A DNA stretch of 50,515 bases from Sphingobacteriaceae bacterium (lineage in GTDB: Bacteria > Bacteroidota > Bacteroidia > UBA7662): contig JAUXNJ010000043.1 of assembly GCA_030682795.1 (NCBI GenBank), forward strand, positions 1-50,515, in the 5' to 3' direction. A model generated the notes under the pieces. The model made no database searches and was not told the DNA's origin. It saw only the letters and a list, made by a program, of their open reading frames with translations. Of this stretch, positions 37 through 7,209 are shown one piece after another. The first letter of the stretch is position 1, and each line of letters begins with the position of its first letter. The position numbers were made by a program, and so were the translations under genes.

Positions 37-3000
37 TTAGAAAATAACTTTTACGGTTTTTACACTTGCGCCGCTCACCAACTGCACTACATAGGTGCCT
101 TTGGCCAGGTTCGGACGAAGGGCGTTGCCATCGAGGCTCAACTGCTGCTGCAGATACACGGTGCGACCGCTGATGTCGAGGATGCGGAGGCTTTGGGCTT
201 GCTCAATGCCACGGATGTATAAGGCACCTTCGTTGGTGTATATTTGGATGAGGTCGTTCTGCTGGTTGTTTACCGAAGTTGTTGCACCAGTACTGTTGAA
301 ATGCAAACGGAAGCGGTCTACAGCCTCGTTGCTACCAACGGTGATACTTACAACTTGGCCATCTACCAGGTCTGTAAAGCTACCAAATCTGCGGTCTTCA
401 AGCTGAACGCGGCTGGAAGTAAGCATGGCAGCAGCGTCGAAGGTAAAGTTGAAACTGCCTGCACCAAAGGTTTCGAGTTGCAAAGGCACCACTACTGCCG
501 CGGCGGTAAGTTCTGGCAATGAATTGATGCTGTATTTTACGCCATTGGCATCGCTGGTGTACAAATCGGGGGTGCCGTTGAAATAATCGGTTACAAACTC
601 AGCATCATAGGCCGCATCGTGGTTTTCGGTAGCGTTGGCACGGAAGCGGATCACGGTTTCAATCGCACTGTTGTTGGTGGTATTGGTGACTTTCACACGG
701 TAGATGTCGCCAGCTGCTTGTGTGCGCTGGTAGCTAGGCGTTTGACCGCTTACCCGAGCCGCAGCAGGGTAGGCCAAACTTGGCGTACCTGAAGCCAGTG
801 CCCGCACCATAAATCCTTGCATGGGAGCAATGTAGCGGCTACCGCCATTGGCAGCAACCCCATCGATGTACGATGCCCAAGCACCACCACCTACGGCTAC
901 ATCGTCTTTTACCCATACCCAAACTGCATTTTGCATATCGGTGCGGGTTACGGCATCCCAATCGAGTACACTGGCAAACGGATTACCAGCGAAATTCCAA
1001 CGTTGTGTGGCGTTGCCCATGCTGATGGCTGCAACATCGCTCAATTGCAAAGCACCGGTGAAGCTGATGGTGTTGGCAGCATTGTTCCACACGCCATAAC
1101 CAATGCCTTGCGGCCAAGTGCCAGCACGGTTGCTGATGCCTTCGTAGGCATTGCTGCCCTCGTTGTAGCCAATTACGGTGTTGGTAGCTGTTGGAAGATT
1201 GGTAACGGTGTTGATTACAGGATTGCTGGCCAAAGGATGGCTCACAAAACGGAAACCGCTGTTGTTGGCCGATGCCCATGGGAGGAAGCGCTCTACGGTT
1301 ACATTGCCGTTGATGCTGCTGTTGGTGCCATTGATAACGTTGGCACTTACATTGGCAGCTGTAGATTTAAGTGTAAGGTTACCCCCTGTGTTCAGCACGC
1401 CGCTCTTTAAATTTAAGGTGCCTGAAATAGAAGAGGCGGCTGATAGACTAACATTGCCATCAACCAATACGTTGTCGAAATTGCCAGAAGTAGCTAAAGT
1501 AGCCGTGCTGCGCTCTGCAATAAAGTTGATGTCGTCGATGGCAAATTCATCGCGGCTTCCTGTGCCACCATTGTCGGTGCCTGACCAGCGCAGGTACAAA
1601 AAGCCATCTGCAGCCACGTTTAAGCCACTTAAGCTTATTGAGAAGTATTGAGGAACCCAAAGTACGCTGCCTTGTGAAGCTAAAACAGAAGAATAGCTCG
1701 CATCAGTGGCTGAGGTGTAGGTGCTGTTGTCGGTAGAATGACTGAAAGCTATGGTGGTAGAACGTGCCTCGTTGTTGTTTACCCATAAAATGTAGGACAA
1801 CTGCGCGTTGTTTAAAGTTGCACCCGTTTTGTTTTGGATGCGGAGGGTGAAATTTCCACCAGTTGAAAACACAGTGCCAGTAGGTTGAATACCTAAAGCG
1901 ATATTTCCAGTGGCCACTTCGAAGGCAAAAGCCCCACTGCTAGTTACCCCACCTGTACTAATACCGAAACCTGATGAAAGATTCCCTCCAAAAGTAGCAG
2001 CTCCTGATGAGTTCGCTGAGTAGGCCCAAGCATTACTGTTTAACTGGCCCGCAGCGGGATTAGCAGCACCGAATGTGCTAGCTGCCGCAAAGCTGCCATT
2101 GTTTACATTGTCCACCGTTGCATCGAAGTTGATGCTAAATACCGTATTGGTAGCGTTGATTTGCCAGCCCAAGGGTACCGACAGGGTAGTGGCATTGGCG
2201 GTACCTGGGGTAGTTGGGTTGTAGTTGGTAGAGGCTGAAACACCGCCATCATTATAAGCAAAAATGGCAAAATGGTAAGTGGTAGCAGGATTAGGTACGG
2301 TAACGGTTACACTGGTGCCGTTACCTTTTAATACAACCCTGTTGTTGGTATTGATAATGGCGCCACTGCTAAAAGTTGCATTAGGTGTATAATCGGTGCC
2401 GTCGACTGGTTCGCCATCTACGGCTGAACCTTCTTTCGCCAAGATGATCCAATTGCTCAAGCCACCAGTATTGCCAACGGTGAGCTCAATGGTGCTGGCA
2501 GTGATGGCGCCAATACTTAAACTAGGTTGTGTACTGGGTTGCGTTGAGAGCACCACACCACTCAAGGCCACGTTCACCGCAGTAGCACCTGCCGAAGTAC
2601 AGCTGATGTTTCCAGACGAAGTACCTAAGGTAGCGCTGTTTTGACGTACGTGGATGGTTTGGGTAGGTACACTGTCAACCACAAAAGCAGTGTGTACCGT
2701 ATCTTGGAAAGTTACATTGTCTCTTGATACCTGAAAGCCCGCTGGAGCAGTTAAAACTACACGTTCGGTAACGTTGGTAGCGCGTACGGTGAAGTTTTGA
2801 GAGGCAGAGCTGGAGCCAGTGATAGCTGTAAAGCCTGATAAAGAGACTGTGTTAGTTATAATTGTTGGACTGGCTGAAGCAAGGCTTGTTACCGTTATGT
2901 CATCCAAACGTATTCTATCTCTACTATTTGCTGTTCCTGACGAAATATAATAAACCCAACGTAAATGAACAATGGGTTCATTATTACATGCACTCGGTAA

Positions 3001-3561
3001 TTCAATTTCAGTGAATGTTTGAGCTGCATTGAGGGAAGCCGTGCTTGTAGTAAGATATTCAGTATTTGCAACGTTGGTAAAGGAGCCAGAGGTGCCTATT
3101 CTATACTGTAACCGGACGCCATTAACTCTATCGGGTGAACCAGTACTGAAACCGGACGTTAATTGTTCTGCAGTAAAGGTAACTTTTAGCCCCGTTCTTC
3201 CAGAAGCATTAAGTGAAACTACAATTGCGCCTATGTTATTCGTGCCGCTATTTAGCAAACTAATTCCATTTGCAACTTCATTTCTAATAGAACCAGTTGT
3301 AATGGTAGTTGAATTTGCTACTAACACCCTATCGGCCGTTGCGTTATCTGTTAAATTCGATGATGTCCTCTCAGCACTAAAACTATGACCTTGAATTGAA
3401 GTCGGATAGGTTGTCGAAGTTCCATCTCCAAAGCCAGTAAAGGTGAAATTAGACGCACTTAAACTGTGTGCAGTTGGATTGGTTTGTCCAAAGCTGAAGA
3501 AACTTGTGATCCCCAAAAGGGATAAAAGTAGGCTTGCTCTTAGTAGTAAGCTTGGTTTCAT
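37..3561 (-). CDS. T9SS-sorted multidomain secreted surface protein
   Basis: This predicted secreted protein has 1174 residues. The ATG at 3561 is preferred over an upstream in-frame start because it begins a good signal peptide (residues 1-26, ending FSFGQ). The body is Ser/Thr/Asn-rich beta-sandwich sequence. Two copies of a module end in a similar motif (LRW followed by RDRIRLDDI at about residue 220, and LRW followed by RDEFAIDDI in the middle), a pattern common in adhesin-like T9SS cargo. The last ~75 residues form a type A sorting domain (LRILDISGRTVY, then KGTYVVQL, ending KTVKVIF), so export should be by the type IX system with anchoring or release at the surface. No enzymatic motif was recognised. 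The N-terminal ~240 codons are visibly more AT-rich than the rest. The family call is firm; the substrate or ligand is unknown. Confidence 0.85.
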   Translation of the reverse strand: MKPSLLLRASLLLSLLGITSFFSFGQTNPTAHSLSASNFTFTGFGDGTSTTYPTSIQGHSFSAERTSSNLTDNATADRVLVANSTTITTGSIRNEVANGISLLNSGTNNIGAIVVSLNASGRTGLKVTFTAEQLTSGFSTGSPDRVNGVRLQYRIGTSGSFTNVANTEYLTTSTASLNAAQTFTEIELPSACNNEPIVHLRWVYYISSGTANSRDRIRLDDITVTSLASASPTIITNTVSLSGFTAITGSSSASQNFTVRATNVTERVVLTAPAGFQVSRDNVTFQDTVHTAFVVDSVPTQTIHVRQNSATLGTSSGNISCTSAGATAVNVALSGVVLSTQPSTQPSLSIGAITASTIELTVGNTGGLSNWIILAKEGSAVDGEPVDGTDYTPNATFSSGAIINTNNRVVLKGNGTSVTVTVPNPATTYHFAIFAYNDGGVSASTNYNPTTPGTANATTLSVPLGWQINATNTVFSINFDATVDNVNNGSFAAASTFGAANPAAGQLNSNAWAYSANSSGAATFGGNLSSGFGISTGGVTSSGAFAFEVATGNIALGIQPTGTVFSTGGNFTLRIQNKTGATLNNAQLSYILWVNNNEARSTTIAFSHSTDNSTYTSATDASYSSVLASQGSVLWVPQYFSISLSGLNVAADGFLYLRWSGTDNGGTGSRDEFAIDDINFIAERSTATLATSGNFDNVLVDGNVSLSAASSISGTLNLKSGVLNTGGNLTLKSTAANVSANVINGTNSSINGNVTVERFLPWASANNSGFRFVSHPLASNPVINTVTNLPTATNTVIGYNEGSNAYEGISNRAGTWPQGIGYGVWNNAANTISFTGALQLSDVAAISMGNATQRWNFAGNPFASVLDWDAVTRTDMQNAVWVWVKDDVAVGGGAWASYIDGVAANGGSRYIAPMQGFMVRALASGTPSLAYPAAARVSGQTPSYQRTQAAGDIYRVKVTNTTNNSAIETVIRFRANATENHDAAYDAEFVTDYFNGTPDLYTSDANGVKYSINSLPELTAAAVVVPLQLETFGAGSFNFTFDAAAMLTSSRVQLEDRRFGSFTDLVDGQVVSITVGSNEAVDRFRLHFNSTGATTSVNNQQNDLIQIYTNEGALYIRGIEQAQSLRILDISGRTVYLQQQLSLDGNALRPNLAKGTYVVQLVSGASVKTVKVIF

Positions 3562-3846
3562 AATGTATTTTTTATTCAATTTAGTTTGCCTCAAATCTCC
3601 CGTTTAATCGAGCCTTCGCCAAGCTTTACAGGTTATCAAATCTTTAACTTATTGTTTTCAGTTTTAAGAAGTGCCAAAATAGGCAGATGCTACTAATTGA
3701 CCAGCATTTTGCCCCAATTGTGGAAAAAGTTGCGCAATACGCAATATTATTCCCAAAGAGAGAAAGGAAAAGGGCAAAAAAAAGAGGCTTAAAAAGCCTC
3801 TTTAAAATCCAAAATATTCAAATTTTAATCATGCATAAATAGCCTG
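3562..3846. other. Intergenic region between actin-like ATPase and T9SS protein
   Basis: These 285 bases are AT-rich and contain no convincing ORF. They hold the terminator of the upstream minus-strand gene (3781-3803) and presumably the promoter of the T9SS gene. A TATTTTGG sequence (minus strand, 3673-3680) is an imperfect candidate -7 box. Confidence 0.4.
3776..3803 (-). terminator. Intrinsic terminator of actin-like ATPase gene
   Basis: A perfect 10-bp stem (AAAGAGGCTT at 3781-3790 with AAGCCTCTTT at 3794-3803) closes a 3-nt loop. Read on the minus strand, it is followed by a run of eight T. It lies about 45 nt after the stop codon of the gene ending at 3847. Confidence 0.8.
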
Positions 3847-5142
3847 TTACCACATGCCTGTCTTCAAAAATTTGCCCAAACGGTCGGCACTTTTGGCGGG
3901 TGCAGTTTTGGGAGCAGGCTGGGGACGAGCAGCCGAGAGCGTGCTGATAACTTCTTCTGCTGCAGGCGCACTTTCAAGCGCCTCATCCACAATGTTTAAA
4001 ACCGGGGCAGGGGTAGGGCTCACCACAGGCGCAGCTTTTGCAACTGGCTGGCGAGGCACTACTTTTTCGATGGTGGCCGGCTCTGTTTTTTCTGAAAAGT
4101 CGTTGTCGGGCGTAGGCTTGGCGCTGCCCTTGGCAAAACTTACAATGGTGGTGGCATTGCCGAGGTCGATGCCCACAGCCGCCGAAGCATCCCCATTGTT
4201 AAGCTGTATGCTGTTGATGCAATAGCCGGTGGTGGCCATGCCGGCAGGGTTTTGCGGCACAATTACTTCTACCACATCCTGGAATTCGAGGTTAAACTGC
4301 GCCAATAAATCTTCATAATGGGCACCGCCCCCTACGAGGTAGAGTTTGTCGGCCCGCTGAAAGTCGCTGTCCTGGAAAGCCTTCCGCAAAGCCGGCGAAA
4401 TTACTTCTTGGTAATACTGCTGCAGCACCCTCTCGCGGGTTTCGCGCAGGTCTACCCGTTTGCGGTTGCTAAACAGAAAACCTTTTTGGAAGGCTTGGTC
4501 GAGCTGGTGCTCGTTCTGCAATTCGAGGTAGTATTTTTTGCCCAGCTCGTTCATCATCAAATTTACGGCATAACGCAGTCCGTTAGTCGAAATCGACGTA
4601 CGTTGCACGCTACCACTTTCGGTGCTCATCACCGCCTCGCAGGTGCCAAAGCCGAGCGACACCACAAAGAAGTTGCCTTTGGCTTGGGGGGCGCCGTGGC
4701 GCAAACCTAGGATGCAACCCTGAATTTCGGGCATCACCTGTACCTTATTAACGCTTACCGGGAAATTGCGGCGCACGGCATTTGAAAAGGTGGCTGGATC
4801 GTATTCGATCACATGCTCGCGCTCAATGATTTCAACGGCTTGCTCGCGGTACAACTGATAGGTAGAGGTAGGGAAGCCCGTGGTGACGGTGAGTTTGTTT
4901 TTGCCAAGTTCGGTGGAAGCGAGCAGCAAGGCCGACTTCAACAGCAATTGATATTCTAATTCGCCAGGGGCGGAGTTGATGTTTTTGTGTGGGGCCACGC
5001 CTTCGGTGAGGGCCAAATTACCAATCACATAGGCTCGGCGTTTTTCATGCAACTTCAAACCATTGATGAGGTCTGGAGCTACCTGGCGCAGCTCGGTGTT
5101 GTTGCCTTCGATGATACTGGGGAATTGTAATAATTCAAACAT
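3847..5142 (-). CDS. Actin-like (ParM/Alp-type) ATPase, apparently circularly permuted
   Basis: This 431-residue protein carries the actin-fold nucleotide-binding motifs in an unusual order. The N-terminus begins at the stretch that normally follows the first phosphate loop (QFPSI, residues 6-10). Next come TTGFPTSTY (87-95), the MPE-containing strand (137-139), the phosphate-2-like VSLGFGTCEA (161-170), the adenosine motif LVGGGA (269-274), and the NPAGMATTGY segment (298-307). Only then does a phosphate-1-like motif appear, VGIDLGNATTIVSF (323-336), which in ParM, actin and Hsp70 sits at the N-terminus. Residues 340-420 are a Pro/Ala-rich, probably disordered tail ending in a short basic/aromatic peptide (RLGKFLKTGMW). 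An in-frame TAG two codons before the ATG rules out a longer N-terminus. No ParR or parC-like partner is seen next to it. Membership of the actin superfamily is well supported; the cellular role (filament, segregation, scaffold) is unknown. Confidence 0.8.
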   Translation of the reverse strand: MFELLQFPSIIEGNNTELRQVAPDLINGLKLHEKRRAYVIGNLALTEGVAPHKNINSAPGELEYQLLLKSALLLASTELGKNKLTVTTGFPTSTYQLYREQAVEIIEREHVIEYDPATFSNAVRRNFPVSVNKVQVMPEIQGCILGLRHGAPQAKGNFFVVSLGFGTCEAVMSTESGSVQRTSISTNGLRYAVNLMMNELGKKYYLELQNEHQLDQAFQKGFLFSNRKRVDLRETRERVLQQYYQEVISPALRKAFQDSDFQRADKLYLVGGGAHYEDLLAQFNLEFQDVVEVIVPQNPAGMATTGYCINSIQLNNGDASAAVGIDLGNATTIVSFAKGSAKPTPDNDFSEKTEPATIEKVVPRQPVAKAAPVVSPTPAPVLNIVDEALESAPAAEEVISTLSAARPQPAPKTAPAKSADRLGKFLKTGMW

Positions 5143-5494
5143 CAGCTTCTAGGGTTGGTTGGTTAAATCCTCTTATTATACTGGGTTACATTCGTAAACT
5201 TTTGCAAAATATAAAATGCAAGGCAAATGGGAAAACATTTGGGATTATTTCTACATTATTATTTTGCGCGTTGATGAGGCGTTTTAGCGGTTGTTCTTAT
5301 AAGCTTCCCTAGGAGCTCCGTACACGCAAATATTTAATTTAAATACCAAGTATATATAGTGTATTTATTGATAGGAATTTTGTTAGGAGGGATTGGCTGG
5401 CGATACAACCATTGAACCACATTGCTAGCTGTTGCGCCTCCAAAAAAGGAAGCGAAGGTTCGTTGTTTAAAAAACTAATGGTTCGTGTGCGCTT
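5143..5494. other. 352-bp intergenic region
   Basis: This is AT-rich sequence between the actin-like gene and the 3' end of the dehydrogenase gene, both on the minus strand. It should contain the promoter of the actin-like gene; TATATTTTG on the minus strand near 5205-5213 is a loose match to the -7 box. No ORF, repeat or strong terminator was seen. Confidence 0.4.
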
Positions 5495-6709
5495 TTAGTC
5501 GGCGTGCCCGTAACCCGGACCGAGATACGTAAAAGCGGGCATCAAAGCGCCGTCGCGCGTAATGGTTGCTCGCTCAATCATGGGGTGCTGGTGCGGCGAT
5601 AGCAGCAGGTGCATGACGTGTTTTACCAGGTTGTAGCTAAACTCGCGCGAGGCATCCACCGGCAGTTCGCAGGGGAGGTTGTCGACCGCCATCACATCAA
5701 TGGAGCCAGGTGCAAAGGGCAGGGTTTCGGCTTCTTGCTGCGGATCGTAGCCATATACCGGGTCGGGAATGGTGCTGGCGCGCAGGGTAGAGGGGATGCT
5801 TCCTTCGATGTCGCAGGTAACGTCGGCAATGGTTTGAATGCTAAAATCGGGCGCTTTCATGTCTTCTTTGGTAAAAAAGACGGGCGCTTTGGGCGACCAA
5901 TATATGGTGTTGATCATGAGGTCGGCCACGCGGGTGTAAGGCTCAAAAATGGAGACATATTCGTCGGGATGGGCATGGAAATGGGCGCCGTCCCAAGCCG
6001 TATTGTTGCGGTGGCGGTACATATCCTTGCTCCGCAGCTCGCAATACACGGCTTCGTTGAAGTTTTCGGTGAGAAATTCTTGCGGACTCACCTTCCTCAA
6101 ACCGGCTGCGGCCAACAGCTCCACTGCGCCAGCGCCTACGCGGCCTGTGCCCGTAACCACCACCTTCATGGCAGGCAGGTTAAGACTGGTGTAGGTGGCC
6201 CGCATTTCGGCATAATCGCGAAACGAATGGGCGGGTTTGAGGTGGAATTTGCCGGAGCGCCGGCCGTAGGTGAGGAGTCCGTTGTGGGTACCCACCACGC
6301 CTGCAAAATGCCCGAAAGCCACCGCCCGTTTGCCGTTATCGAAGGTAATGAGCTCGTAATCGATCATCCGAATTTGCTTTTTGAGCAGCTCCTGCAGCAG
6401 TTTGCGGTTGTACGGTTGGCGTTTGATGGTGTGCGAAAAAAACAGATAGGTCTTTTGCGGCTGCAGCAAACTCACCGGCACCTCTTTTACCCCCATCAAA
6501 ATGTGGCACTGGCTGAGGTCTTCACTGATCACGCATCCCGCCCGTTGGTAGGCCGATTCGGGGAAGCAGCGGATGTCGGAGGGCTGCACATAAATCTCTA
6601 AATGGCCGTATTGCTGGAGGAGTTCCTGGCAATGCTCGGGAATGAGGGGAACGCGGTGATCGGGTGGCACTTTGCCTTCGCGGAGGATGCCGAGGCGGAT
6701 GGTTTGCAT
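5495..6709 (-). CDS. Saccharopine dehydrogenase / alanine dehydrogenase-like NAD-dependent oxidoreductase
   Basis: This 404-residue enzyme is of the AlaDH/PNT-LYS1 superfamily. The N-terminal catalytic domain starts with the family signature LGILREGKVPPDHRVPL (residues 6-22), then GVKEVP (73-78) and FFSHTIK (90-96). By analogy with fungal Lys1, K75 and H93 are the probable catalytic residues. A Rossmann segment follows, with VTGTGRVGAGA (185-195; GxGxxG). This points to an NAD(P)-dependent amino-acid dehydrogenase, either saccharopine-type or a close relative; I cannot tell which substrate. The start at 6709 is chosen because upstream in-frame codons run into the tmRNA gene and its terminator and have no family resemblance. 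The gene is monocistronic, downstream of ssrA on the same strand. Confidence 0.85.
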   Translation of the reverse strand: MQTIRLGILREGKVPPDHRVPLIPEHCQELLQQYGHLEIYVQPSDIRCFPESAYQRAGCVISEDLSQCHILMGVKEVPVSLLQPQKTYLFFSHTIKRQPYNRKLLQELLKKQIRMIDYELITFDNGKRAVAFGHFAGVVGTHNGLLTYGRRSGKFHLKPAHSFRDYAEMRATYTSLNLPAMKVVVTGTGRVGAGAVELLAAAGLRKVSPQEFLTENFNEAVYCELRSKDMYRHRNNTAWDGAHFHAHPDEYVSIFEPYTRVADLMINTIYWSPKAPVFFTKEDMKAPDFSIQTIADVTCDIEGSIPSTLRASTIPDPVYGYDPQQEAETLPFAPGSIDVMAVDNLPCELPVDASREFSYNLVKHVMHLLLSPHQHPMIERATITRDGALMPAFTYLGPGYGHAD

Positions 6710-6810
6710 GCTGCAAAAAAACGGCTGTTTGGCGTGAAAAGCAACGAAAAGCGGTTCTTTTTGTGGGATGAAGTTCGAATGTGCTTTTAAACAACGGCAG
6801 GGGAGAAATG

Positions 6811-6841
6811 AAAAAGGCAGTCCGTTGAAGAACTGCCTTTT
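6811..6841 (-). terminator. Intrinsic terminator of tmRNA
   Basis: A 9-bp stem (AAAGGCAGT at 6813-6821 with ACTGCCTTT at 6832-6840) has a 10-nt loop and a T-run on the minus strand. It begins 2-3 nt after the tmRNA discriminator base. Confidence 0.85.
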
Positions 6842-6842
6842 G

Positions 6843-7209
6843 TGGAGCTGCAGGGAGTCGAACCCTGGTCCAGACAAGCTGATCTGAAGCTTTCTACATG
6901 CTTAGCCGTCCGTTGATTTTCGAGTCACACCAGGTCGGGGGCTTACCACAGTGCTTCCTTAGTTGCTGTTGTTTCGCCCTTGGCACGCAACGGGCCGCAG
7001 ACTATTTTCTCATTGGTTATGCCTCCATATGCCAGGACTAAGAAACCCATCCCAACGGAGACAACTCATGCGTAATTCCTAGAATTAGGCAGCGAGTGCG
7101 TAATTGTTTTCGCCAGTTATGGCTCGAGTGTTCCGATTTACGAGGCCCCACACAAATCTCGGCATGCTTACAGCAGTATCATCGCGAGCTGTCGATTCCG
7201 GTCAGCCCC
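6843..7209 (-). ncRNA. ssrA: Transfer-messenger RNA (tmRNA)
   Basis: tmRNA rescues stalled ribosomes by acting as tRNA-Ala and then as mRNA for a degradation tag. The 5' end GGGGCTGACCGGAATCGAC and the 3' TPsiC arm with GGTTCGACTCCC are diagnostic. The acceptor stem GGGGCTG pairs with CAGCTCC (6844-6850), with discriminator A at 6843. The tag reading frame resumes at GGC (7112-7114) and encodes GENNYALAA followed by TAA (7085-7087), giving the tag AGENNYALAA with the tRNA-borne alanine. The next bases after the discriminator are CAA, so CCA is not encoded and must be added after transcription. The length of about 367 nt is normal for one-piece tmRNA. Confidence 0.97.

Follow-up and report, generated by a model that had tools for sequence, protein, structure and literature searches.

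An actin-like gene and the order of its motifs

The stretch of DNA analyzed here (the window, 50,515 nucleotides) contains on its minus strand, from position 5142 down to 3847, an open reading frame encoding a 431-residue, apparently permuted actin-like protein, P0001. This assignment draws on the reading frame and on full-length homologues at 44 loci, that of the window included. An in-frame TAG (5149..5151, minus strand) lies two codons (K, L) 5' of the ATG and therefore excludes an N-terminal extension bearing phosphate 1; the first-pass annotation of the window had held that this stop closes the N-terminus, and it does. Just 3' of the stop codon lies a terminator-like stem-loop with a T run (3781..3803, minus strand), which is suggestive at most; in the stem-loop scan, shuffled sequence yielded equally many terminator-like sites.

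The phosphate 1, phosphate 2, adenosine and connect motifs of the ASKHA proteins are all present and conserved in this family, with a substitution of the phosphate-2 aspartate. Their order, read along the minus strand, is unusual. Near the N-terminus of P0001 is an FPS stretch (residues 7-9, 5116..5124; all 43 aligned cores have P8 and S9), which in ALP_N/ParM-type proteins is the stretch that comes after phosphate 1. It is followed by a V/I-P-E motif with the putative catalytic glutamate, E139 (4726..4728), the phosphate-2 loop VVSLGFGTCE (residues 160-169, 4636..4665), in which Ser162 replaces the canonical aspartate, the adenosine motif LVGGGA (residues 269-274, 4321..4338), and a connect-2-like segment, NPAGMATTGY (residues 298-307, 4222..4251), with an invariant G306 and a tyrosine or phenylalanine at 307. 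The sole phosphate-1 motif of the protein, VGIDLGNATTIVSF (residues 323-336), comes after all of these, within a putatively relocated hairpin, AVGIDLGNATTIVSF (residues 322-336, 4135..4179). The FPS stretch, LVGGGA, NPAGMATTGY and VGIDLGNATTIVSF lie where the first-pass annotation had placed them. The protein continues with a low-complexity, poorly conserved Pro/Ala-rich linker (residues 341-419, 3886..4122) and terminates in the peptide DRLGKFLKTGMW (residues 420-431, 3850..3885), which has a tryptophan at its end.

The gene surroundings vary within the window's own family (f1). Directly downstream of the actin gene is a 1185-codon open reading frame (37-3594, minus strand) that is not found beside the actin in related f1 loci. 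In two of these, L016 (7915-9123) and L017 (3661-4875), the gene directly upstream of the actin has the same orientation and encodes a lysine/alanine-dehydrogenase-like protein of 402-404 residues, and both loci have an acyltransferase-like gene farther from the actin; the window's open reading frame at 5495-6877 (minus strand) matches the dehydrogenase-like gene by place.

Motif order and profile matches argue for a circular permutation

The first-pass annotation had proposed that the first beta-hairpin of an actin was moved to the C-terminus. In a blind scan of the 44 homologous open reading frames, each protein contained exactly one GxDxG, always near the C-terminus. The canonical ASKHA order, with phosphate 1 N-terminal, was thus found in none of the 44, and rotation of the sequence restores it. 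Homologues lacking the C-terminal motif had been named beforehand as evidence against the proposal; the survey found the motif conserved throughout. Within the motif, none of the 43 aligned cores departs from G324, D326, G328, N329 and T332; this set of cores was extracted by means of a motif pattern and so leans towards the motif. E139, G164, G166, E169 and G271-G273 are likewise invariant in all 43. The 44th member, which falls outside the pattern-cut set, reads GLDVGNAHT.

Rotation experiments with sequence profiles point in the same direction. Placing the hairpin at the front of the sequence increased the score against the Pfam profile ALP_N by 8.5-10.3 bits in four of four relatives and moved the start of the match from profile position 17-21 to position 1, producing the continuous, higher-scoring match that the proposal had predicted. 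All four exceed the curated cut-off of 26.3 bits, both in native form (34.1-53.6 bits) and when rotated (42.6-63.9 bits). P0001 itself has no ALP_N match. Against the phage family phrog_691 it scored 63.9 bits in native form, 65.5 bits when rotated (+1.6) and 64.2 bits with a shuffled hairpin (+0.3), and the L015 protein rose from 70.4 to 72.5 bits on rotation, with the match start moving from 44 to 6. Because the gain is small for P0001, support for the permutation comes from its relatives and from the profiles. The rotated family profile matches the ParM hybrid structures 4xhp and 4xe8 across the new junction (GFDTGN...FAIPTVI), aligning the FPS stretch to FAIPTVIAE of 4xhp; neither structure is listed among the matches of the native family profile. 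The native profile instead aligns to an Hsp70 structure, BiP, in three non-collinear pieces (315-338 to 17-40, 97-179 to 146-236, and 249-287 to 334-373), each of them weak alone, and such out-of-order pieces are the pattern expected of a circular permutant. AlphaFold2, run on two sequences (the window protein and one relative), gave a mean pLDDT of 35.

One could suppose that the C-terminal GxDxG owes its presence to chance or to faulty annotation, and that the real phosphate 1 is missing or lies upstream. The slight response of P0001 to rotation, set beside that obtained with a shuffled hairpin, would suit such a reading. We nevertheless regard it as exceedingly improbable given the in-frame stop upstream, the invariance of GxDxG across 44 homologues, and the far larger rotation gain in the relatives. 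A missed N-terminal phosphate 1 in particular is ruled out by the TAG together with the lack of any other GxDxG in the 44 homologues. Judged from motif order and profile matches, P0001 is almost certainly a permuted actin, and the proposed relocation of the hairpin is upheld by the order in 44 of 44 members, the ALP_N rotation, and the match of the rotated profile to ParM.

The nucleotide-binding site

The position of the phosphate-2 aspartate is occupied by serine in 38, glycine in four, asparagine in one and aspartate in none of the 43 aligned cores. In the native profile the family's SLGYGT aligns with DLGGGT of BiP, so that VVSLGFGTCE of P0001 stands against FDLGGGTFD. In the superfamily this aspartate helps to coordinate Mg2+, and its loss from all members leads us to expect a slow ATPase, or possibly one that does not hydrolyze ATP at all. 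The phosphate-1 aspartate and the catalytic-type glutamate are retained. The invariance of the remaining pocket makes continued selection for nucleotide binding likely.

These substitutions raise the question of whether the permuted fold has given up hydrolysis entirely and serves as a static scaffold or adaptor, with or without bound nucleotide, rather than as a dynamic filament. A phosphate-2 aspartate absent from 43 of 43 cores is in keeping with this, as is a permutation that puts free chain ends beside phosphate 1. On the other hand, deep divergence has left D326 and E139 invariant, along with the GGG of the adenosine motif and the glycine-rich phosphate-2 loop. Selection thus seems still to act at least on nucleotide binding, and we consider a static scaffold unlikely.

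Distribution and relation to known actins

A protein search identified two relatives in the window's own family, with 74% (the L001 sequence) and 60% identity. Profile searches then took in the order to which a second family, f17, belongs, and after it the phylum as a whole. A profile search of a class of 245 genomes gave a match in 31; in the window's own class, queried with a single protein, 4 of 395 genomes had a match, and in a sample of the phylum the figure was 27 of 395 at a loose E-value limit, a few of these matches being very weak. We examined 44 members from ten families, including that of the window, with their neighbourhoods. The distribution of the permuted actin is patchy over at least ten families of the phylum, and the family is, by the conservation of its sequences, an old one.

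The best sequence matches of these proteins are to ParM/Alp7A-type actins (PF17989, 8x1i, 4xhp/4xe8), with which they have motifs in common, including GxDxGN...FPS after rotation. PF17989 (ALP_N) matches 18 of 25 members. They differ from this type in their C-terminal phosphate 1, replaced phosphate-2 aspartate and chromosomal location, and in being paired with a bactofilin rather than with a DNA-binding adaptor. PF21522 (MreB-like_C), the profile of archaeal actin homologues, matches the C-terminal half of 24 of 25 members; P0001 scores 25.8 bits against it, below the curated cut-off of 27.8. Many members match PF06723 and the NCBIfam MreB model weakly; the actin fold is common to MreB and the permuted actins, which differ in motif order and partner. 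A separate full-length MreB is present in eight of eight carrier genomes tested.

The profile matches could be taken to mean that P0001 is a segregation actin of plasmid origin that still partitions a replicon: the closest profiles are of the ParM type, namely ALP_N, phrog_691 ('partition protein') for P0001 and Dh-cParM1 (8x1i) for the native family profile. ParM and Alp actins are recognized by a plasmid or phage location and an adjacent adaptor gene; here the linked gene encodes a bactofilin. No relatives were found in viral contigs or in 50,697 phage records, and 72,556 plasmids yielded none beyond one weak ParM match at 21% identity, whose own relatives were likewise absent from the viral contigs. 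A mobile or viral origin was rejected on these grounds. Moreover, members occur on contigs of up to 3.6 Mb, and the gene conserved next to the actin is one for a bactofilin, not for a small DNA-binding partner. A continuing role in replicon partitioning is therefore very unlikely.

FcmB/FcmC of filamentous cyanobacteria, a chromosomal actin-like family, is said to derive from plasmid partitioning and acts with a gene partner in cell shape (PMC12645912); that paper mentions neither permutation nor bactofilin. The NCBIfam FcmB model gives weak matches to five of 25 permuted actins, the best with an E of 2e-4. Membership of FcmB (NF052678) was rejected, as the family falls far short of the 300-bit curated cut-off, which no match in 13 carrier genomes exceeded. 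The first-pass annotation knew of no bacterial actin with the permuted order, and our search of open-licence papers likewise found neither permuted actins nor actin-bactofilin operons described.

A bactofilin with an aromatic C-terminus lies beside most of the actin genes

At 30 of the 44 actin loci, the next gene downstream on the same strand encodes a bactofilin. Of these loci, 26 have a gap of 0 to 144 bases between the two genes and four a gap of 252 to 1,013 bases, and the adjacency spans eight families (f17, f102, f107, f109, f120, f121, f130 and f152). Some of these bactofilins exceed the PF04519 curated cut-off of 27.9 bits, and the others were scored with a custom bactofilin profile only. 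All 30 terminate in an aromatic residue (27 in tryptophan, three in phenylalanine), compared with a background of five tryptophan-ended proteins among 257 other open reading frames. Among 33 non-adjacent bactofilins examined, none ended in tryptophan and one in phenylalanine. First seen in an initial set of loci, the rule then held at 13 of 13 newly examined loci with an adjacent bactofilin; the loci are mutually related and the counts not phylogenetically independent, so that Fisher values for the aromatic ends overstate the evidence. The permuted actin and the bactofilin probably form a functional module.

We found no third gene conserved in the actin neighbourhoods, and for this reason favor the actin itself as the receptor of the tryptophan peptide. 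From these sequence patterns we put the chances that the peptide docks on the actin at a little short of even; the receptor may instead be encoded elsewhere in the genome. Docking would not be universal, since 11 of the 14 loci that lack an immediately adjacent bactofilin also lack a tryptophan tail on the actin. A precedent for flexible bactofilin tails that bind a soluble client is BacP of M. xanthus, whose long unstructured tail recruits PadC (PMC12448750). As described there, that interaction involves a KKKVVVKK motif and PadC, whereas here a terminal tryptophan or phenylalanine and an adjacent actin are concerned.

The tryptophan-ended tails could also be tags for another protein, such as a targeting receptor, chaperone or protease, with the actin and bactofilin merely co-regulated. 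Several observations are in line with tags: conservation lies in the terminal residue rather than in a long motif, three families have loci where neither protein has a tail, and the tail of the f1 actins has been kept although no bactofilin is adjacent. A general tag would not readily account for tryptophan ends that occur only on the actin-adjacent bactofilins and not on other bactofilins of the same genomes, and the neighbourhoods hold no conserved third gene that might encode its reader. We regard tagging as a serious but somewhat doubtful alternative.

The tailed lineage of the window

The long Pro/Ala tail is limited to the window's own family (three genomes) and is absent in other families; most relatives outside this lineage end about 5-30 residues past the hairpin. 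In the tree, the tailed actins (the window, L016 and L017) form a clade within the bactofilin-linked f17 sequences (support 99/97 and 96/91). Their Pro/Ala linkers terminate in DRLGKFLKTGMW or KRIHKFLISGTW. A comparison of the window with L001 shows purifying selection on the core (dN 0.10, dS 1.08). Linker residues 341-419 are 38% identical to L001 and 23% to L004. The last 12 residues, in which the window reads ..GKFLKTGMW with the conserved tryptophan, are identical at 12 of 12 positions in L001 despite seven synonymous changes, and at six of 12 in L004, including KFL..G.W. The first-pass annotation had described a Pro/Ala-rich tail with a conserved-looking end; the end peptide is indeed conserved, but the long tail is a property of one lineage and not of the family.

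Each of the three tailed-actin genomes has one bactofilin, which is encoded elsewhere, is not adjacent to the actin and lacks a tryptophan end. A hidden bactofilin remnant beside the actin was sought and rejected: no open reading frame of at least 60 residues matched in the window, L016 or L017. The simplest reading of these sequences is that the bactofilin gene was lost from the locus and a tryptophan-ended tail was gained on the actin, the likeness of this tail to the bactofilin tails being limited to low complexity and the terminal tryptophan.

A proposed role for the permuted actin

The explanation that we favor, and consider reasonably probable as a whole, is that of a permuted ParM/Alp-type actin that forms ATP filaments with slow or no hydrolysis, is captured by a tryptophan peptide, and has a role in shape or the envelope. 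A chromosomal actin of this type would have been permuted by one beta-hairpin: S3 would now be the first strand of the chain, and S1-S2, which carry phosphate 1, would come after the connect-2 helix at the C-terminus. This protein is predicted to bind ATP and to form filaments that turn over their nucleotide slowly or not at all. A bactofilin polymer associated with the membrane or wall would capture it, in most lineages, by means of a long flexible tail. The C-terminal peptide of ParR docks on ParM, and the terminal tryptophan peptide of the bactofilin tail might dock on the permuted actin in a comparable manner. In the window's lineage, where the partner gene appears to have been lost from the locus, the tryptophan-ended linker would extend from the new C-terminus of the actin, beside phosphate 1, and could dock either from one actin subunit to another or on a shared partner that remains. 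The role is likely to lie in cell shape or envelope organization, not in plasmid segregation.

More tentatively, the two proteins could constitute a new two-component cytoskeleton, in which the tryptophan tail of a bactofilin polymer captures the permuted actin and one lineage, with the tail moved onto the actin and the bactofilin gene lost from the locus, has become self-docking. For such self-docking the permutation would provide a C-terminal end next to the nucleotide pocket.

Natural circular permutants of actin are apparently undescribed in the open-licence literature. Both ends of the actin chain are in subdomain 1, and a viable permutant therefore tells which filament edges tolerate free ends; tags and fusions could also be attached at a site that already exists. 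Through their gene link, actin and bactofilin would directly connect two cytoskeletal systems that are usually regarded as separate, in bacteria that also bear MreB. The aromatic-terminus rule, with its 30 of 30 cases, is a sharp and cheaply testable prediction.

Other genes at the actin loci

The permuted actin at L152 (2931-4316, minus strand) has 461 residues, of which about 80 make up an additional N-terminal region; its C-terminal tail is rich in Gln and Ala, and the bactofilin beside it ends in RPRFW. Near the third bactofilin-like gene of genome G340 there is an open reading frame of long near-identical repeats (LRPGITFFSFVTF and similar; L032, 215-937), which could be the antisense reading of a different repeat protein's gene. 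In three f102 loci (L069, 265-8407; L072, 4977-12993; L073, 4950-12942) the actin gene is flanked by genes for an M23-type peptidase and a TPR protein, named from their translations, in what looks like an operon; further on are ATP-synthase-like genes and a canonical bactofilin with no terminal tryptophan. Three loci of family f104, which have no adjacent bactofilin, encode immediately upstream of the actin a pentapeptide-repeat protein of about 1,240 residues (L062, 2308-6027; L063, 7549-11298; L064, 2555-6256), for which a beta-helix is expected, as it is for bactofilin.
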